IMG/VR virus record: IMGVR_UViG_3300042924_004960
Coordinates: 1-26,829 of that record
DNA from: a virus
Length of the DNA: 26,829 bases
Direction: 5' to 3' (one strand)
Shown: in pieces, positions 2,136 to 12,319 of the stretch
How the letters are laid out: each line of letters starts with the position of its first letter
How positions within the stretch are numbered: the stretch's first letter is position 1
Position numbers and translations under genes: made by a program
The notes under the pieces: model-generated
Database searches by the model: none
Seen by the model: only the letters and a program-made list of their open reading frames with translations
What the model was told of the DNA's origin: nothing

Positions 2136-2395
2136 GGAAACACCACCTTTGCACCGTCCTTTACGGCTTGCAGGATGCACTCGAAAAGGAACTCTTGGAG
2201 GAACCAAGATTCTGGCAAAGTGTTTTCGGGTTGCTCAAACCTTTTGCCGTCAATCTCGGTGAATACGATGAACTCGCTATCCTTCCAAGATGGGCTGACT
2301 ACCTGGACGTAGACTTTGTATCCGTACATCGTCTGGCAGAAAGTCTCTCCGGCGTCGAACCCGATTGATGCGCTTGGAATATCAATCTTGCTCAT
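2132..2395 (-). CDS. hypothetical phage protein, 87 aa
   Basis: The start at 2395 (MSKIDIPSASIGFDAGETF) forms an ATGA overlap with the stop of the 168-aa gene upstream. The longer frame beginning at 2413 adds only six residues that overlap that gene. The protein has alternating beta-type segments (YGYKVYVQVV, SEFIVFTEID) and a C-terminal helix (SWFLQEFLFECILQAVKDGAKVVF). No known motif is recognised. It is translationally coupled to both neighbours in the left operon. Confidence 0.68.
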   Translation of the reverse strand: MSKIDIPSASIGFDAGETFCQTMYGYKVYVQVVSPSWKDSEFIVFTEIDGKRFEQPENTLPESWFLQEFLFECILQAVKDGAKVVFP

Positions 2396-2898
2396 GCCGC
2401 ACTCCCGTTGCATAGTGTTTGCAGTGCGAGCTTTAGACCGTTTAGCTGGTTGAACTTATCGGCCTCCGTGAGAGCGTTAAACTTGCGGAGAACTTCTGGG
2501 CAGTGGTGAGCCAGCATTCCGAACTGCCGCATCTGATCTATTGCGAAGTTGCTCGGCATCTCAGAGCCGTTGGCATAGCTCCATGCCTCGAAGAATTCCA
2601 GGTGGAACGCTACCGACTCGTTTGGGGTGAGGTGAGGAACTGGGGTGATGACCCAGACGCCCACTTCGGTGCGGAAACCGTCGACTGGGTATCGGCGCAG
2701 AAGGGCGGGAAATTCTGCGCGTAGGGCGTCGGTAAAGCCGTCTAGCTCGGTGATGACGATAGTGTTTTCGTCCGCGTGAGCTTTGGCGAGCAGGATATTC
2801 CCTGCCTTGATGTTCCGGTTGTAGCCCTTGCTAAGGGCGGTTAGTGTGGTGTACAGAGCTAACTCTGCGGCTGTGTGTGCGTTGAACGGTGTGTCCAT
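2392..2898 (-). CDS. first gene of the left operon, hypothetical, 168 aa
   Basis: This is the promoter-proximal gene of the minus-strand operon. The ATG at 2898 has AAGGA about 6 nt upstream and lies some 33 nt downstream of the expected transcription start. The protein is soluble and mixed alpha/beta, with an N-terminal helical region (AAELALYTTLTALSKGYNR), a central hydrophobic strand pair (TEVGVWVITPVP) and a helical C-terminus. No motif is recognised. Its place directly behind an operator-controlled promoter suggests an early protein. It overlaps the next gene by ATGA. Confidence 0.72.
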   Translation of the reverse strand: MDTPFNAHTAAELALYTTLTALSKGYNRNIKAGNILLAKAHADENTIVITELDGFTDALRAEFPALLRRYPVDGFRTEVGVWVITPVPHLTPNESVAFHLEFFEAWSYANGSEMPSNFAIDQMRQFGMLAHHCPEVLRKFNALTEADKFNQLNGLKLALQTLCNGSAA

Positions 2899-2937
2899 GT
2901 GTGATCCTTGCTGAGCCGTTGTCGCGGCTACAATAAG

Positions 2938-2969
2938 ACTTTACCACACTTTGCACAATTTTGTGCAAA
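2938..2969 (-). promoter_or_regulatory. left early promoter with repressor operator (OL-like)
   Basis: Bases 2950-2969 form a 9+2+9 bp palindrome of the half-site TTTGCACAA, the same core as the larger palindrome at 3878-3905. On the minus strand a -10 element TAAAGT (2943-2938) is preceded by TGG, an extended -10, and lies about 17 bp from the palindrome centre. The palindrome therefore covers the -35 region, so a bound repressor would block polymerase. The repressor gene at 3505-3849 is the obvious candidate ligand. Promoter strength and repression are inferred. Confidence 0.7.
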
Positions 2970-2979
2970 AAATGCAAAG

Positions 2980-3014
2980 AAAATAAAAAAAAGTCCCCGC
3001 TGGGTTCAGCGAGG
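2980..3014 (-). terminator. intrinsic terminator of the repressor operon
   Basis: On the minus strand CCTCGCTG and CAGCGGGG (3014-2995) form an 8-bp stem with one G-U pair and a 4-nt AACC loop. The run ACTTTTTTTT follows directly. It lies about 27 nt past the stop of the zinc-ribbon gene (3041) and just before the left operator, so it insulates the early operon from repressor transcription. Confidence 0.85.
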
Positions 3015-3040
3015 ATTCATTTTCAGCCAAGAAAAAGACT

Positions 3041-3508
3041 TTAGATCGGGACTAACTTCTCAACCGCTTCGCACTCGGGGCAACGTTTGACGGTGTACAA
3101 GACTTCCCTATGCAGGAAGAGCATGGCGACGAGGCAAATGGCGGTAATAACCCACGTCGATCCGCAAAGGAAGAATCCAACGATGAAGCATCCGGCGGCA
3201 ATCGCGCCCAAAACCTCGTATGCGCTCGGCTTGTATTTGTTTTTGTATAGGCAGTTTACGCATCCGCACCTTTGGCACGGGCCGACGAGTCTTGATGTGT
3301 TGACCAAAGAGCCGAAGAAAAGTGCCTTAAAGGAAAAGGGTTTGCTTGGTTGCTGGATCGGCGGTGCGGCTACGGTTTGGGATGCAGTGGCACAAGCCAT
3401 GCACCGACCTTTTGTGAGGTCGCTATAAGCTCTGGAGATGTGCTTCCGGCATCCAATACAGTAGATCGGTTGCATCATGTCGTCTTGGGTGAAATCCTGG
3501 TCGTTCAT
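3041..3508 (-). CDS. zinc-ribbon, two-helix membrane protein cotranscribed with the repressor
   Basis: This 155-aa protein has paired cysteines at 17/20 and 36/39 (a treble-clef or zinc-ribbon pattern), a second cluster at 78/81/83/86 and a final CPEC at 143/146. Two hydrophobic segments at about 99-115 and 117-132 would form a membrane hairpin, leaving the cysteine-rich parts on the same side. It overlaps the repressor gene by ATGA, has AGGA 5-6 nt before its ATG, and is followed by an intrinsic terminator, so repressor and membrane protein form a two-gene operon. Expression together with a repressor would suit a lysogenic-conversion or superinfection-exclusion role, but this is only inference from context. 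Confidence 0.72.
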   Translation of the reverse strand: MNDQDFTQDDMMQPIYCIGCRKHISRAYSDLTKGRCMACATASQTVAAPPIQQPSKPFSFKALFFGSLVNTSRLVGPCQRCGCVNCLYKNKYKPSAYEVLGAIAAGCFIVGFFLCGSTWVITAICLVAMLFLHREVLYTVKRCPECEAVEKLVPI

Positions 3509-3849
3509 ATCTTTCCTAATAGGTCTAAGGCGGCGTACAGTTCGGCTTTTGCGGTTAATTTGAGCGATTCGGATACTCCATGTTCTGCGAGCATATCTAT
3601 AAGCAGACGGATCTGCCTCCTGGTCGCTCTCGGTCTAATCGGCTCTTCGGCGTCCGGGTTGCCAATAAATTTCTGAATGCCGAGTTCGTTTAGTTTGGCA
3701 TAGGTAAAGACGGGAACCTCTGCCCTTCCAGTTTCAATGTTAGCGACCGTTGAACGTTTCATGCCGAGTAAGTCCGCAAATTCTTCTTGCGTCATGCCGC
3801 GATATTTCCTCAGAAGCTTGAAGGCTGCCGCGTACTCCAGTTGATCCAT
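3505..3849 (-). CDS. XRE-family (Cro/CI-like) repressor, 114 aa
   Basis: Residues about 6-60 form a helix-turn-helix of the XRE family, with the typical run YRGMTQEEFADLLGMKRSTVANIETGR, where TQEEFADLLG is helix 2 and the recognition helix follows. A C-terminal helical part (about 75-114) could dimerise. There is no S24/LexA-type peptidase domain, so RecA-triggered autocleavage is not expected. The start at 3849 (MDQLEYAAAF) fits the XRE N-terminus, whereas the longer frame from 4062 runs through the operator and the divergent gene. It lies next to the palindrome at 3878-3905 and is coupled by ATGA to the zinc-ribbon gene. It probably maintains lysogeny or delays early expression. Confidence 0.88.
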   Translation of the reverse strand: MDQLEYAAAFKLLRKYRGMTQEEFADLLGMKRSTVANIETGRAEVPVFTYAKLNELGIQKFIGNPDAEEPIRPRATRRQIRLLIDMLAEHGVSESLKLTAKAELYAALDLLGKI

Positions 3850-3877
3850 ACATATAATTTTCCTCAACAATGCTTCC

Positions 3878-3905
3878 ACAGTTTGCACAAAATTGTGCAA
3901 ACTGT
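3878..3905. promoter_or_regulatory. main operator palindrome between divergent genes (OR-like)
   Basis: Two perfect 13-nt arms (ACAGTTTGCACAA and its complement) are separated by AA. The inner 9-nt arm, TTTGCACAA, is shared with the left operator at 2950-2969. The palindrome lies between the XRE repressor and the first right early gene, where a CI/Cro-type switch would have its operator. Its symmetry fits a dimeric HTH regulator. Occupancy would cover the -35 region of the rightward promoter and the upstream region of the repressor gene. Confidence 0.85.
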
Positions 3906-3914
3906 TGGTATAGT
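3883..3914 (+). promoter_or_regulatory. rightward early promoter, probably leaderless
   Basis: TATAGT at 3909-3914 is preceded by TGG, an extended -10. A TTGCAC at 3883-3888 lies inside the operator with a long 20-bp spacer. The first ATG is at 3923, only 8 nt past the -10, and there is no Shine-Dalgarno sequence, so the transcript probably starts at or within a few bases of the ATG. Its layout mirrors the left promoter, with the palindrome centre about 17 bp from the -10. Confidence 0.65.
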
Positions 3915-3922
3915 ATTTCTTG

Positions 3923-4231
3923 ATGGACGAAAATACTACTGTTATCCGTAAAATCCAGCAAATCGACGGGGGGTGGAAGGGGGTCGAAAGTCTCCAGGCG
4001 TTTGACCTTCTTCGATCCCAAAGACACACTATGCAGGAGATTGCAGAGGCGTTCGGGTGCAAGACTCGAAACTTTTACTACCTGCTCGCAAAAGCTCGAG
4101 CCGAACTAGCAAAAAAAGAGGGCGATGATGCGACAACACCATCCACCCAGTATTTTGAAAGTAGCAGCAAGGATGTCGCGCACCACTGTTCATGTGGGAG
4201 TTTACCAGACTCTAAGGCGGTGGGATGGTGA
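3923..4231 (+). CDS. small HTH protein, first right early gene (Cro-position), 102 aa
   Basis: The protein carries a helix-turn-helix of homeodomain type at about residues 26-62 (LLRSQRHTMQEIAEAFGCKTRNFYYLLAKAR), followed by a charged linker and a disordered C-terminus with two Cys residues. It is divergent from the XRE repressor and first in the rightward operon, a position typical of Cro or early activators, although its fold differs from XRE Cro proteins. The ATG at 3923 has no ribosome-binding site and lies 8 nt after a -10 box. The C-terminus overlaps the next gene by 7 nt. It probably regulates transcription; the target is unknown. Confidence 0.75.
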   Translation: MDENTTVIRKIQQIDGGWKGVESLQAFDLLRSQRHTMQEIAEAFGCKTRNFYYLLAKARAELAKKEGDDATTPSTQYFESSSKDVAHHCSCGSLPDSKAVGW

Positions 4232-5453: not shown

Positions 5454-5646
5454 ATTGCACAAAAAACCAACTCAACAAGACAACGACGTGACTGCGGTCA
5501 GTCAAGCACTGATGTGCTTTAGCCGGGAAGAACTGCGCGAACTGCTAGAAGGTCGCGCCAATAACCCGGTCGCCATGATGCGGGACACGGCGATTCGGCA
5601 CCTGAAGATTCTCGACAAGATCGAAAAGGGGTTGCTGAATGATTAA
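5440..5646 (+). CDS. hypothetical small helical protein, 68 aa
   Basis: A near-perfect Shine-Dalgarno sequence AAAGGAGG ends 6-8 nt before GTG-ATG at 5437/5440, and I take the ATG. The protein (MVYRRLHKKPTQQ...) has a basic N-terminus and two amphipathic helices (SREELRELLEGR, RDTAIRHLKILDKIEKGLL). It overlaps the 3' end of the HTH gene by 14 nt and the primase-helicase by 8 nt. The strong ribosome-binding site and coupling suggest it is made in quantity with the replication protein. The function is unknown. Confidence 0.68.
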   Translation: MVYRRLHKKPTQQDNDVTAVSQALMCFSREELRELLEGRANNPVAMMRDTAIRHLKILDKIEKGLLND

Positions 5647-8578
5647 GTTCTCCTTGTTTGGATCAATCCGATCAAAGACACCGGACGAAACGGTTTTGCC
5701 GTGGGCTGAGTTATCCGGAATCCTCACCGAGTTTGCTGAGCGCGGCACAAAGGAAGGGCCGCTTTGGTCGCCAGTTACCTTTGGTGGTGGTGCCAGGAAG
5801 AAGGAGAACGTTGACTGGGTCTATGCGCTGGTACTCGATTTCGACGGTGGGCATGATCCCGCTGATTTCCTCGAGCTATTTAGCGGATACCAGTACGTTA
5901 TTCACTCCAGCTTTTCTTCCACGCCTGAGCATCCGAAGTGGCGGGCGGTCTTTCCGCTGGCTGAACCTGTGCCTGGATGCGACTGGCCGGGATATTGGAA
6001 GGGGTTAGATGAGCGTTTTGGTGGCGGGGTGTCCGATGCGGCCTGTAAGGATGCAAGCCGTATGTACTACCTACCAGCTCACCCGGTCGGCACTGTGCCG
6101 TTTACCTATGTTGGCTCAGGTGAATTCCTAGACGCTAGGCCGTTCTTTATGCCCGAAGCTAAACCCGAACGACCAGATCCGCGCTCCGTCGCTCCTGGCG
6201 ATGGTGGGCTTATGCCTGGTGAGGACTTTGAAGGCCGCGCTGATTGGAGCGAAGCACTGCCGGGGTGGACACACGTTCGGCGTAGTGGGTCGCTTGACTA
6301 CTGGAGACGGCCAGGCAAGAAAGAAGGCATATCTGCCACCACTGGGCCGCGTGATATTGGCGACCGCTTGATCTGCTTCAGCAGTTCCACGGCACTTGAA
6401 GCAAACAAGGCATACACCAAGTTTGGCGCGTATGCGGTGCTGGAATTTGGTGGGGATTATGCCTCGGCGGCTAAATCGCTGGTGAAACGTGGTTTTGGAA
6501 ATGGTGCCAGCGAGAGCCGGCGAAAAATGCAAAATGAGCCAGCGAATTCGAACCTAGCGAGGGCAGGTGAGCCAGCGAGAATTTTGCAAAATAACATTGC
6601 TTATATCCATGGTGTTGAACCTAAGGCATCGGAATTCAACCCCGGAATCTCGCTGGCTCTCGCTGGCTCACGAAATTCTGACGCTTTGGTGCTCAACCGG
6701 ATCAAACTTTTTGCTAAGCACTTTGGAGAATGGCAAGGGCTTTCCGCTGATTTTGTCTCGCTCCTAAAGGTGGATGATGGCAACAATGGCAAGTACCTGT
6801 GGCAAACGATTGCAAGACTTGAGCCTCAGCTTATGCGGATTCAAGTCAAGATTGATCGCGCCAAAATTCGATCTGGTGAGCATAGAGACAGGCACGGAGT
6901 CACGCTCACGCGGACTTCTCGGCCTTCTATTGAGTGCAAGAATCGGCAGCTTGATGATTTGGGGGATGACCTGTTCGCGCTTTTGCTCGAGCAAAACGAT
7001 CCCGAAACCTATTTCTCAAGAACTGGGATGATCGTTGCTCCTGGCTTTGATGAGAACGGAATGATCTCGATTGTGCCAGTCATGGGGAACCGTCTTCGTG
7101 CGGAACTTTCTAGGAAATCGGACTTTATCGAATCAACTCCGACCAAAGAAGGGCTAAAGATTAAGCAGGTATTCCCGCCAAAAGAGGCCGTGGATTATCT
7201 CGAGTCTTTGTTCCCCTGGCCTGGCTTGCCTCCGCTGAAATCTATTGCCTCCTGTCCGGTGGTGACGAGTTCTGGGGTGCGCCGTTCGGCTGGCTATGAC
7301 TGGGATCAGAAGGTTTATGTGAACCTGCCAAGCGATGTTCCGGTGTGGGATGGCGGTGATCCGGTCAAGTTTATCTTTGATGAGCTGCTCTGTGATTTTC
7401 CGTTTGATTCCGATGCTTCTAGGGCAAACACGCTGGCAATTATGATGCTACCGATCTTGCGTCCGGTCATTGATGGGCCTACTCCGCTTCACCTTATCGA
7501 AGCTCCAACTCAAGGCACGGGTAAGTCGCTCCTGGCGAAGGTTGCTCTGCTTTCCACGCTCGGCCAATGTGGGGCTATGACGGTGCCGAAGGATGAGGAC
7601 TCTTGGTCGAAGAAGATCACCAGTGCGCTCGTTAAGGGTTCCCCGGTGGTGTTTATCGACAACATTGCGCATAAGCTCGATTCGGAGTCACTAGCGGCGG
7701 TGCTTACTACTACGTCTTGGACTGACCGGATTCTTGGGCAGACGAGCAACGTAGACGTGCCAAACGCGGCGGTCTGGATTGCGACCAGCAACAACTGCAA
7801 GATGTCCCAAGACATCGCGCGGCGAACCGTGTATATTCGCCTAGACTCGGAAATGGAGCATCCCGAAGAACGGGACGGCTTTAAGATTCCGGACATTGTG
7901 GAGTTTGCCACGGAGAACCGTTTGCGGATTCTTTCCGCGCTCACGGAGATTGCTGAGGTCTGGATTCGTGCTGGGCGTCCGCTAGGCCGGGAGAAGATGG
8001 GATCGTTTGAATCGTGGGCTAAGATTGTCGGTGGCTGCATGGCGGCGAACGGCGTTCCTGGCTTCCTATCCAACCGTGAGCAGTTGCAATCAAGCGCTAA
8101 CGATGAACGGGATATTTGGGAAGCGGTGTTTGCTCACTGTTTTGAAAGATATCTTGATTTTCCGCAGTCTACGTCGGTGATTTACGATGACCTTAAAGAG
8201 ACTGATTTCCTATCGGAACTTGGCTTAGTTAAGACTGATGAGGCCAACAAACGAAGCCTTGCCATGATGCTTACCTCGAAGGTCGGGAAGATATATGGTG
8301 CCACTAAACTAGAGAAGTCTACAAGGGCTGGAGGATCCCGTAGGTTCAAATTTACAGGGGTTGGTGCCACTAAGGACACTAATCATAGTTTTTCCAGTAA
8401 CGCGCGCGCAGGCGCATACATACAAGAGGAAAACCAAAATTCTCCAAATTCTTCAGATTATTTCCATACGCCTGAGGCTGGAAATACTGCACTTAGTGGC
8501 GTTAGTGGCACCAGTCAGGTTCAAAACGGTGGTGCCACTAACGGTGCCACTAGCGAAATCGTGGAGGAGGTCTGGTGA
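5639..8578 (+). CDS. phage primase-helicase (AEP-like primase plus P-loop ATPase), 979 aa
   Basis: The N-terminal region has features of archaeo-eukaryotic-type primases: a LDFDG metal-binding motif (Asp 67/69), an IHSSFSSTPEHPKWR segment (about 88-102, with His89 and Lys100), and a later D-A-S-R-M-Y-Y-L-P stretch (138-146). A variable linker spans about 290-350. The C-terminal half is a helicase-type ATPase with Walker A APTQGTGKS (about 622-630), Walker B VVFIDN (about 670-675) and a sensor-like ATSNN with downstream arginines. Its last 90 residues are low complexity. It would prime and unwind at the phage origin. AAAGGGG precedes the ATG. Two clusters of short repeats lie within the gene (6506-6671 and 8297-8552). 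No polymerase gene is near, so the host replisome is probably used. Confidence 0.85.
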   Translation: MIKFSLFGSIRSKTPDETVLPWAELSGILTEFAERGTKEGPLWSPVTFGGGARKKENVDWVYALVLDFDGGHDPADFLELFSGYQYVIHSSFSSTPEHPKWRAVFPLAEPVPGCDWPGYWKGLDERFGGGVSDAACKDASRMYYLPAHPVGTVPFTYVGSGEFLDARPFFMPEAKPERPDPRSVAPGDGGLMPGEDFEGRADWSEALPGWTHVRRSGSLDYWRRPGKKEGISATTGPRDIGDRLICFSSSTALEANKAYTKFGAYAVLEFGGDYASAAKSLVKRGFGNGASESRRKMQNEPANSNLARAGEPARILQNNIAYIHGVEPKASEFNPGISLALAGSRNSDALVLNRIKLFAKHFGEWQGLSADFVSLLKVDDGNNGKYLWQTIARLEPQLMRIQVKIDRAKIRSGEHRDRHGVTLTRTSRPSIECKNRQLDDLGDDLFALLLEQNDPETYFSRTGMIVAPGFDENGMISIVPVMGNRLRAELSRKSDFIESTPTKEGLKIKQVFPPKEAVDYLESLFPWPGLPPLKSIASCPVVTSSGVRRSAGYDWDQKVYVNLPSDVPVWDGGDPVKFIFDELLCDFPFDSDASRANTLAIMMLPILRPVIDGPTPLHLIEAPTQGTGKSLLAKVALLSTLGQCGAMTVPKDEDSWSKKITSALVKGSPVVFIDNIAHKLDSESLAAVLTTTSWTDRILGQTSNVDVPNAAVWIATSNNCKMSQDIARRTVYIRLDSEMEHPEERDGFKIPDIVEFATENRLRILSALTEIAEVWIRAGRPLGREKMGSFESWAKIVGGCMAANGVPGFLSNREQLQSSANDERDIWEAVFAHCFERYLDFPQSTSVIYDDLKETDFLSELGLVKTDEANKRSLAMMLTSKVGKIYGATKLEKSTRAGGSRRFKFTGVGATKDTNHSFSSNARAGAYIQEENQNSPNSSDYFHTPEAGNTALSGVSGTSQVQNGGATNGATSEIVEEVW
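6506..6671. repeat. cluster of GCCAGCGAG-type repeats in the primase gene (candidate origin)
   Basis: Copies of (GA)GCCAGCGA(GA) lie at 6506-6515, 6536-6546 and 6567-6580 on the plus strand and, inverted, at 6648-6659 and 6658-6671. A degenerate half copy (TAGCGAGGG) lies near 6555. The copies at 6567-6580 and 6658-6671 are perfect 14-nt inverted repeats. AT-rich AAAATGCAAAA and ATTTTGCAAAAT words lie between them. The cluster falls in a variable linker of the protein. Iterons beside an AT-rich stretch within a replication gene resemble the lambda origin within gene O. Origin function is inferred. Confidence 0.55.
8297..8552. repeat. five copies of GGTGCCACTA near the 3' end of the primase gene
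   Basis: Identical 10-mers GGTGCCACTA lie at 8297-8306, 8363-8372, 8531-8540 and 8543-8552, with one inverted copy at 8503-8512. They encode Gly-Ala-Thr repeats in a low-complexity tail where protein constraint seems weak. They could be binding sites for a replication or regulatory protein, or simple expansion of coding repeats. Confidence 0.5.
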
Positions 8579-9093: not shown

Positions 9094-9829
9094 AGTTTTG
9101 GCGAGTTTGGTTTCAAGCTCCGTAGAAGACCGGATGCTCAAGAAGCAGGTTCGCGCTCGGAGGGTTTTCTCGGACGGGAAAAACTCCTTCATTTGCATTG
9201 GCAACGAGTTCCACGGCTCCAGGATGCTGGTGAGCATCGTCAAGGTTAGTTCCACGCTGTTTCACCATGACTTCATTTGGAATCGGAATAATCAGCGGTG
9301 GGCTTTTGAATCCACCGGGCAGATACTGACGACGGTTCTTGAGTGCGACATCTCGCCGGCTGCTGTTGCTCTTGCTATTTCCAGGCAGTCACCTAAAGGC
9401 TACGGCATGATGTTGGAGCTAGATTCGAGCCTCCTGGTCAATGGCCGCGCTTATTTGATGTCCAAGGGGTTTGACCGGGACAAGGCAGATTATCACGCTC
9501 TGATCGCATTCCAAAAGGCGATGGATGCGATAACTTACATTGAAGGCACGAACTTCTTTGCTTGCCTGAACTCCGCGTATTACTCGAGACTATCTAACGA
9601 GTTTCGGTATGAGCAAAAGGCCGGACGCGCATCTCCTGAACTTTCGCTCATCGAGGACTTGACGTCTGAGGAGATGGATGTCCCATTGGTTTGCGGATCA
9701 TTAGCCCACAAGGTCGCGGATCTGGTCTTGGGCGGTCAAACGTTTGAGGAGGCATCTGAAAGTCTATGCCTGACTGAGGCTGAGCGTCAATCGGTGAAAC
9801 AAGAACTGGCACTTGCTCTTGGTGTTTAG
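9068..9829 (+). CDS. putative phage RNA polymerase sigma factor, 253 aa
   Basis: Residues about 122-188 fit sigma70 region 2: YLMSKGFDRDKADYHALIAF, then QKAMDAITYIEGTNFFACL, then a basic helix with SNEFRYEQKAGR. T4 late sigma gp55 has the same order (an acidic/helical start, a KxhxxFD-like turn, F/Y-rich helix, then a basic helix). The C-terminal part (about 210-250; SLAHKVADLVLGGQTFEEASESL...) is a possible HTH like region 4. The first 100 residues are unlike housekeeping sigmas. GAGGTG lies 7 nt before the ATG. It is the last early gene, and its own end (Gly-Val-stop) contains the first copy of the GGTGTTTAG late motif, which fits a role in switching on late genes. The call is by pattern; another HTH regulator is possible. 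Confidence 0.5.
   Translation: MNINQLTSEVLASLVSSSVEDRMLKKQVRARRVFSDGKNSFICIGNEFHGSRMLVSIVKVSSTLFHHDFIWNRNNQRWAFESTGQILTTVLECDISPAAVALAISRQSPKGYGMMLELDSSLLVNGRAYLMSKGFDRDKADYHALIAFQKAMDAITYIEGTNFFACLNSAYYSRLSNEFRYEQKAGRASPELSLIEDLTSEEMDVPLVCGSLAHKVADLVLGGQTFEEASESLCLTEAERQSVKQELALALGV
9821..9829 (+). promoter_or_regulatory. late motif copy 1 (before the amidase)
   Basis: GGTGTTTAG ends 7 nt before the amidase ATG at 9837. The motif is also the last codons and stop (GGT GTT TAG) of the sigma-like gene. No conserved -35 element is seen upstream. The spacing matches the other copies and would place a transcript start at or next to the ATG if it is a promoter. Confidence 0.7.
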
Positions 9830-9836
9830 AAGAAGC

Positions 9837-10400
9837 ATGAAAGTCGCAATCGACCCAGGTCACGGGATGTCCAACGTAAGGTCGGGGGTCTATGATCCCG
9901 GCGCGGTATCGAACTTTCTATCTGAGGCAGACATTGCGCTTCAATGGGCATTGACCGGGAAATGGGTTTTTGCTCTTAACGGAATTGAAACATTCCTCAC
10001 CAGGGATGATGACCGGGACTCTACTCCGGTCGGTAGGCGAGACGATCAAGCCACTAAAGAAGGATGTACCCACTTCATCAGCCTCCATTGCAACGCGGCG
10101 GCAAGCACTAAAGCTCGGGGCATTGAATCTTTCTACCGTGACGATGCGGACAAGCTGCTCGCCACAACCGTTCTGGCTGCACTTGCCAGGGTTGTTCCTG
10201 ACGCGCCAAACCGGGGAGTCAAGCACGAAAGCCAAACCCACGTTGGACGGCTTGCGGTGCTGAATTTCAAACCACCTGCAACACTTGTTGAGCTTGGGTT
10301 CATCACTAACCCGCAGGATCAGGCTTACCTGATTTCACGCGATGCACGAATTCGTTTCTGGACGAACTTACTCCCAGCGTTTAAGAAGGCAAAAAGATGA
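9837..10400 (+). CDS. N-acetylmuramoyl-L-alanine amidase (endolysin), 187 aa
   Basis: This is a full-length Amidase_3 domain that cleaves the bond between N-acetylmuramic acid and L-alanine in peptidoglycan. The zinc ligands are visible as His9 in DPGHG, Glu30 in LSEADIA and His84 in SLHCNA, and the catalytic Glu152 lies in TLVELGFITN. There is no signal peptide, so export would need a holin, for which the next gene is a candidate. I start at 9837 (MKVAIDPGHG) rather than the upstream in-frame GTG because the family begins with this strand and the late motif precedes it. It overlaps the next gene by ATGA and is the first gene behind a GGTGTTTAG element. Confidence 0.93.
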   Translation: MKVAIDPGHGMSNVRSGVYDPGAVSNFLSEADIALQWALTGKWVFALNGIETFLTRDDDRDSTPVGRRDDQATKEGCTHFISLHCNAAASTKARGIESFYRDDADKLLATTVLAALARVVPDAPNRGVKHESQTHVGRLAVLNFKPPATLVELGFITNPQDQAYLISRDARIRFWTNLLPAFKKAKR

Positions 10401-11008: not shown

Positions 11009-12319
11009 ATGAGTGAACCAAACTTCCCGCCCTACAAAAAAGAAAAGCTATCCCGCTTGACGGGTTACGCGGCAAATAGCCGAACGCACTCCACCGAGCA
11101 GATCAAGCAGATCGCGGATTCTATTACCGAGTTTGGCTTTACGAACCCGATCCTGGTTGACGAGAACGGCATGATCATTGCTGGCCACGGGCGACTTGCG
11201 GCGGCTCAACTGCTTGGCATAAATGAAGTTCCGACGATTACGCTGGCAGGGCTTACGGAAGCGCAGAAAAGGGCTTATGTGATCGCAGACAATAAGCTGG
11301 CTCTGAACGCTGGCTGGGACTTAGGGCTTTTGAAATCGGAACTCGGCGCGTTAAAGTCTGACGACTTTGATCTATCCCTCACTGGCTTTAGCAGCCTTGA
11401 ATTAGCAGACCTCTTTGCGGAAAAAACAACCGGGCTTACTGATCCTGATGAATTGCCTGAAGCGGATGAAGATTCAGTTTCTGTCATTGGAGACGTATGG
11501 GTCTTGGGTGCGCACAGGATCGCTTGCGGGGACTGCACGGACGCACTGGTGGTGGATTCAGTGCTTGCAGGCGTTAAACCGCATTTGATGGTAACTGATC
11601 CTCCTTACGGCGTGAAGTATGAAGCAGACTGGCGAACCAAGGCCGGATTGCAGGATGCAGGGGCGCACGGAAAAGTTTTAAATGATGACAGGGCTGATTG
11701 GAGAGAGGCGTGGGCATTATTCCCGGGAAACGTTGCTTACATTTGGCATGGTGCGCTACACGCTCAAACTGTGTCCGAATCTCTTGCCTCTGTTAAGTTT
11801 AAAGTTCGCGCTCAAATTATCTGGGTTAAAACGCGATTTGCAATAGGGAGGGGTAATTACCACTGGCAACATGAGCCGTCTTTTTACGCAACCAAAGAAG
11901 GTGATCTGGATGATGGGTGGAGATTCGTAGATGATCATGAATCAGCGGCTTATGTAGTGAAGGATGGTAAAACCGCTAATTGGGAAGGTGGGAGAAAGCA
12001 AAGCACAGTGTGGTTTATAGAACACATCAAGTCAGAAACTGGGCATAGCACCCAGAAGCCTGTAGAATGCATGGCTCGCCCTATTCGCAATAATTCCAGT
12101 CCTGGGCAGGCGGTTTATGAGCCATTTAGCGGATCTGGAACAACCATCATTGCTTGCGAAATGGAAGGAAGGGCTTGCTATGCCGTTGAATTAAACCCGC
12201 CTTATGTTGATATGGCCATAAAGCGTTGGCAAAACTTTACAGGGAAGCAGGCGGTCAGGGAATCGGACGGCGTTACCTTTGATGAGGCATTAAAAGATCA
12301 TGGCAAATCCTCCGCATGA
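11009..12319 (+). CDS. ParB-like domain fused to DNA methyltransferase, 436 aa
   Basis: Residues about 10-105 form a ParB/Srx-type domain (SRTHSTEQIKQIADSITEFGFTNPILVDENG, then GHGRLAAAQLLG). The C-terminal part is an adenine- or cytosine-N4 DNA methyltransferase with motif IV DPPY at 197-200 and the S-adenosylmethionine-binding motif FSGSG at about 373-377, in the beta-class order (IV before I). Such fusions are common beside phage terminase genes and may protect phage DNA from restriction or mark it for packaging. It is full length. It overlaps the small terminase gene by 20 nt. The recognition sequence cannot be predicted. Confidence 0.9.
   Translation: MSEPNFPPYKKEKLSRLTGYAANSRTHSTEQIKQIADSITEFGFTNPILVDENGMIIAGHGRLAAAQLLGINEVPTITLAGLTEAQKRAYVIADNKLALNAGWDLGLLKSELGALKSDDFDLSLTGFSSLELADLFAEKTTGLTDPDELPEADEDSVSVIGDVWVLGAHRIACGDCTDALVVDSVLAGVKPHLMVTDPPYGVKYEADWRTKAGLQDAGAHGKVLNDDRADWREAWALFPGNVAYIWHGALHAQTVSESLASVKFKVRAQIIWVKTRFAIGRGNYHWQHEPSFYATKEGDLDDGWRFVDDHESAAYVVKDGKTANWEGGRKQSTVWFIEHIKSETGHSTQKPVECMARPIRNNSSPGQAVYEPFSGSGTTIIACEMEGRACYAVELNPPYVDMAIKRWQNFTGKQAVRESDGVTFDEALKDHGKSSA

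Follow-up and report, generated by a model that had tools for sequence, protein, structure and literature searches.

Layout of the putative immunity region

The window, that is, the whole stretch of 26,829 nucleotides of viral DNA analysed here (IMG/VR record IMGVR_UViG_3300042924_004960), holds a leftward operon with the gene of an XRE-type repressor, flanked by two matched palindromes and by putative early promoters that read outward from it. The features on which the analysis rests are the following:

2392-2898, minus strand: gene at the head of the left operon, its 168-aa product without a family match in Pfam or PHROGs
2938-2946, minus strand: extended -10 of the putative left early promoter, TGG TAAAGT, with TAAAGT at 2943-2938
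2950-2969, no strand assigned: putative left operator, TTTGCACAA-TT-TTGTGCAAA, whose minus-strand reading is identical to the core of the right operator
2994-3015, minus strand: strong intrinsic terminator that closes the repressor operon, upstream of the left promoter, a 9-pair stem followed by T8
3041-3508, minus strand: cysteine-rich 155-aa product, a putative membrane protein, whose gene takes the place of lambda rex and by its layout is co-transcribed with the repressor
3505-3849, minus strand: 114-aa XRE-type repressor, with an HTH_3/HTH_31 domain at the N-terminus and, by low-confidence prediction, a short helical tail at the C-terminus
3878-3905, no strand assigned: putative right operator, ACAGTTTGCACAA-AA-TTGTGCAAACTGT, perfect 13-nt arms around 2 nt, with a 20-bp core at 3882-3901
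3906-3914, plus strand: extended -10 of the putative right early promoter, TGG TATAGT, with TATAGT at 3909-3914 and the -35 position inside the operator
3923-4231, plus strand: gene of a 102-aa HTH-like protein that opens the right operon (the Cro position), starting 8 nt past the -10 and thus probably near-leaderless
5639-8578, plus strand: 979-aa primase/helicase of the right operon (PHROGs), which served as a probe for relatives

The helix-turn-helix domain of the repressor scores above the curated cut-offs of Pfam HTH_31 (2.5e-10, 40.9 bits, cut-off 27) and HTH_3 (5.9e-10, 39.5 bits, cut-off 23), which places it in the XRE / Cro-CI class, and its PHROGs match is to transcriptional regulators. 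Among its nearest solved sequences are HipB and C.BclI, small HTH_3-fold regulators that bind palindromic operators; the window repressor shares their fold but not their biological role, and the similarity is distant and confined to the HTH. A fold search of the PDB returned generic HTH matches only, none with E below 0.001, and the AlphaFold model made without an alignment (mean pLDDT 61) was too weak past the HTH core to show dimerisation. The protein ends at 114 aa, matches HTH-type models only and has no S24 domain. We confirmed no relatives of it in bacterial or archaeal genomes and found none by tblastn in named phages, nor did the first 9 kb, used as a DNA query, match any named phage.

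The product of the second gene of the repressor operon, at 3041-3508, has no match in Pfam or PHROGs, and the gene is a candidate for an exclusion or accessory lysogeny function. Folding of the terminator downstream gave -15.3 kcal/mol (z -4.0), and a search of Rfam returned no match. By eye, minus-strand positions 3850-3930 show no convincing -10/-35 pair that could serve as promoter of the repressor gene itself.

On the left, the first gene, where a lambda-type region would have an N-type antiterminator, codes for the 168-aa product without a family match, and the operon runs toward a truncated gene at 1-345 that, on inspection, looks like the N-terminus of an integrase; it was unmatched in the Pfam and PHROGs libraries. 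On the right, the 102-aa protein gave a weak match to Sigma70_r4_2 (E 0.0018, below cut-off) and has no XRE domain, while its AlphaFold model, made without an alignment (mean pLDDT 56), has an HTH-like helical core. Farther along this operon lie terminase, portal, protease and capsid genes. The window also encodes a 436-aa protein (11009-12319) that combines a ParB N-terminal-like domain with an N6/N4 DNA methyltransferase, with an amidase-type lysin gene near it at 9813-10400.

Operator palindromes and outward promoters

An earlier reading of this DNA from sequence alone (hereafter the sequence-only reading) had placed matched palindromes at 2950-2969 and 3882-3901, and these coordinates proved exact. 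The pattern TTTGCACAA-NN-TTGTGCAAA occurs in the window in two exact copies, with zero mismatches, at these positions, against 0.03 sites expected by chance from dinucleotide shuffles. No further site was found in the 26.8-kb window with up to three mismatches. Read each along its own outward promoter, the two 20-mers match at 20/20 positions. The perfect 13-nt arms claimed for 3878-3905 are there as well, an arm of that length being reached in 0/60 shuffles, and a scan of the 26.8 kb for perfect inverted repeats (arms of at least 9 nt, spacer no longer than 12 nt) returned the two sites alone. Each promoter has one full palindrome and no extra operator copies, and isolated half-sites occur near chance level. 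Within the palindrome 11 bp, or roughly one turn of the helix, separate the half-site centres, and the two operators lie 932 bp apart, centre to centre.

The hexamers TATAGT and TAAAGT, each behind TGG, are present where the sequence-only reading had put extended -10 elements. In both outward promoters the -35 position is occupied by the operator palindrome. Neither has a -35 consensus, which is why a general promoter scan found no sigma-70 promoter at either site. The spacing of about 17 bp that had been claimed between palindrome and -10 stands when it is counted from the operator centre to the -10 hexamer (17.5 bp on the right, 16.5 bp on the left), but not from the edge of the 20-mer, where the gap is 7 bp and 6 bp, respectively; the 28-mer at 3878-3905 directly abuts the TGG.

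Replacement of operators and repressor among related phages

We compared the window with five related phage contigs (L010, L011, L016, L051 and L052), a set with three immunity types. Among 2.9 million viral contigs the exact palindrome was found in one other, 3300042906_001069 (L011), which carries it twice, with both operators unchanged; the same contig encodes the only near-identical repressor (100%). A different immunity type is found in L010 (3300034012_001657), whose primase is 100% identical to that of the window in the best segment and whose early region shares 91-99% DNA identity with it in the main blocks, and about 97% over a 6-kb block. Its repressor gene (L010:3350-4042) codes for a 230-aa protein with an S24 domain (PF00717), and both promoter-operator regions are replaced with respect to the window, with the 155-aa gene retained between them. 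Both L010 promoters carry TTTGTGGAAA-NNNN-GGTAA, which occurs nowhere else in the 35-kb contig within one mismatch; this shared word has only 10 nt and was matched by 21/300 shuffles, and is weak evidence on its own. The third type was reached via the 155-aa gene, 100% identical in L016 (3300034092_003405), where the repressor (L016:5291-6004) also matches PF00717. Both L016 promoters carry one and the same 28-mer, TACTATTTTCCGTAAATTTGGTATAATA, which covers the operator as well as the extended -10 (0/300 shuffles). Its 23-mer core is present in L051 and L052, once on each strand at a distance of about 1.3 kb, and the word, as 28-mer or as 23-mer core, has exactly two copies in each of the three contigs. 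The repressor genes of L051 and L052 are 97.6% identical in DNA to that of L016, whereas their 155-aa genes are only 74% identical. Repressor relatives with identities in between, and with operators that could be read, did not turn up, and the weak relatives (L005-L009), which are too distant, showed no comparable operator pair.

The 155-aa product is 96-100% identical in L010, L011 and L016; this protein, probably membrane-anchored, is kept in all three immunity types. The L010 and L016 repressors are 98% identical in their C-terminal part and 34% identical in their N-terminal, DNA-binding part; judging from these identities, the pair is a natural domain swap. In DNA, the two contigs are about 95% identical over a stretch that begins in the middle of the repressor gene, takes in the 155-aa gene (inside which identity dips to 80%) and ends at the terminator. 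At both ends of this stretch identity falls to about 30-60%, on one side with the DNA-binding domain and right promoter, on the other with the left promoter.

In L011 the diagnostic sites are L010-like up to 2859 (with one exception, at 2727), from 3209 to 3383 and again from 4237 onward, and window-like at 2910-3185 and 3497-4227 (with one or two mixed sites, 3517-3518). On this pattern L011 is of mosaic origin and matches the window in two segments apart from each other, one with the left operator and one with the repressor. Because parental origin switches between the tracts, the left operator appears to have followed the repressor while the intervening DNA did not, as would be expected under selection for cognate operators. 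Repressor and operators are exchanged together between these relatives, a pattern that suggests heteroimmunity.

The outward promoters could be followed through the same comparison. A TGG-extended -10 is found in five of the six corresponding promoters of the three immunity types, that is, besides the window, at the right promoter of L016 and at the left promoters of L010 and L016. The promoter calls are supported by this recurrence, since the operator sequences differ. The claim that the palindromes flank the XRE repressor operon and control outward promoters is largely supported, by the replacement of both sites with the repressor across three immunity types, by the recurring TGG-extended -10s and by the terminator that precedes the left promoter. 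The -10 of the right promoter precedes the start codon by only 6-8 nt in all three types, so the right transcripts are probably near-leaderless; the places concerned are 3914-3923 in the window, L010:4110-4126 and L016:5210-5220. At the left promoter the distance to the start codon is 34-40 nt in all three types.

The proposed switch, its alternatives and known systems

With good confidence we read these features as the immunity region of a temperate tailed phage, in which a dimer of the 114-aa repressor would shut both early promoters through one palindrome each; the two palindromes are very probably the on/off sites of the repressor. The spacing of the half-sites would fit a dimer, which would bind one 20-bp palindrome at each early promoter, cover the -35 positions next to the extended -10s and occlude RNA polymerase. 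Silenced in this way would be the leftward operon, from the 168-aa gene toward the end read as an integrase, and the rightward operon, with the 102-aa HTH gene, the primase/helicase and the DNA packaging and structural genes, and the silencing of both early promoters would hold the prophage quiet. The repressor and the 155-aa gene would be transcribed leftward up to the terminator before the left promoter, and the 102-aa protein may share the same sites, as Cro does. A higher affinity at 3878-3905 than at 2950-2969 is plausible, and the distance between the operators would in principle permit looping. Since the S24 domain of its relatives is missing, the window repressor would lack LexA/CI-type self-cleavage, and induction would need another route.

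Alternatively, the palindromes could serve mainly the 102-aa HTH protein, and the 114-aa XRE protein would regulate elsewhere or not at all. The gene of the former is the first of the right operon and its product has an HTH-like helical core; it also lies in the same swapped tract as the repressor (3497-4227), so covariation cannot separate the two proteins as binder. Nevertheless, we regard this as unlikely: the 102-aa protein has no XRE domain and its HTH scores are sub-threshold, while between L010 and L016 the change in the repressor is confined to its DNA-binding half, matching the change in the operators. Moreover, binding by the 102-aa protein would not exclude the repressor, as lambda repressor and Cro bind the same operator sites.

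Host factors are used by some phages, and the sites might belong to a host transcription factor and have been adopted by the phage. This we consider very improbable, as both sites change along with the repressor between phages whose early regions are about 97% identical apart from that. In addition, a search of 257 Gb of bacterial and archaeal genomes at large found the exact palindrome 26 times, as single hits scattered over many phyla, with nothing regulon-like and none beside a clear relative of the XRE repressor. We find it scarcely credible that the palindromes act as terminators or replication iterons or recur by chance, even though inverted repeats are capable of the first two roles: no T tract follows either of them on either strand, the real terminator is the one at 2994-3015, and there are just two copies, each at a promoter, where chance would give 0.03. 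A literature text search for TTGTGCAAA returned only unrelated papers among the matches listed.

Taken as operators of the 114-aa repressor, the palindromes can be set beside known systems. The analogy with lambda OL/OR with a single site each, drawn by the sequence-only reading, holds in layout: the repressor and the following gene lie between two matched operators, each of which overlaps, at the level of sequence, an outward early promoter, and a divergent small HTH gene occupies the cro position. Lambda and 434 are heteroimmune relatives that differ in repressor and operators (PMC6550527), as the phages compared here would be. In contrast to lambda, which has three sites per operator, there is one per promoter here; the window repressor has 114 aa and no S24 autocleavage domain, and the gene in the rex position has no family match and is conserved across immunity types. 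Judged on these features the region is a two-ended temperate-phage immunity switch of a known general kind, but not a strict lambda-type region, because multiple sites per operator and a repressor with an S24/LexA-like C-terminus are not found in the window. In the immB region of the telomere phage PY54, the divergent repressor and cro genes are separated by a stretch with only one recognisable operator palindrome (PMC4488713), like the single palindrome between the repressor and the cro-position gene here, but that scheme has no matching second operator, and the likeness is one of described layout. In Cluster A mycobacteriophages (L5/Bxb1) the repressor acts with an operator and stoperators, 20-30 oriented sites through the genome (PMC6550527); repressor and site consensus vary together between heteroimmune relatives there as well, whereas here there are exactly two promoter sites.

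The window would hold a lysogeny switch of an ordinary kind, seen here through an unusually clean natural swap among relatives. We suggest, tentatively and at somewhat less than even confidence, that specificity changes by paired replacement of two tracts around a conserved core, and that such an exchange can also turn an S24-type repressor into a short one. The first tract would comprise the DNA-binding domain of the repressor, the right operator and the HTH gene, the second the left operator and left promoter, and the core the rex-position gene plus, in two types, the C-terminal domain of the repressor. The S24-type repressor would presumably be SOS-cleavable, and the short one would have to be induced otherwise. 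The contigs amount to a natural domain-swap experiment in which the DNA-binding domain and both distant operators change and the DNA between them stays. From sequence alone they supply candidate operators for three phage repressors not yet characterised. They are also a clean example of how heteroimmunity arises where a joint change of two operators is required, which has been called poorly understood (PMC6550527).

Finally, the second gene of the left operon (2141-2391) has a different sequence in L010 and L011 (35-46% identity), as an exchangeable cassette beside the switch. The left transcript has a hairpin at its 5' end, directly ahead of the ribosome-binding site (2906-2930 on the minus strand; L010:2743-2790; L016:6565-6605), which reads AGCCG-CGACAA-CGGCT in the window and ACCGC-GAAA-GCGGT in L010. 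It is retained across immunity types with both sides of the stem altered (z -1.7 to -2.9), and is possibly an mRNA-stability or boxB-like element.
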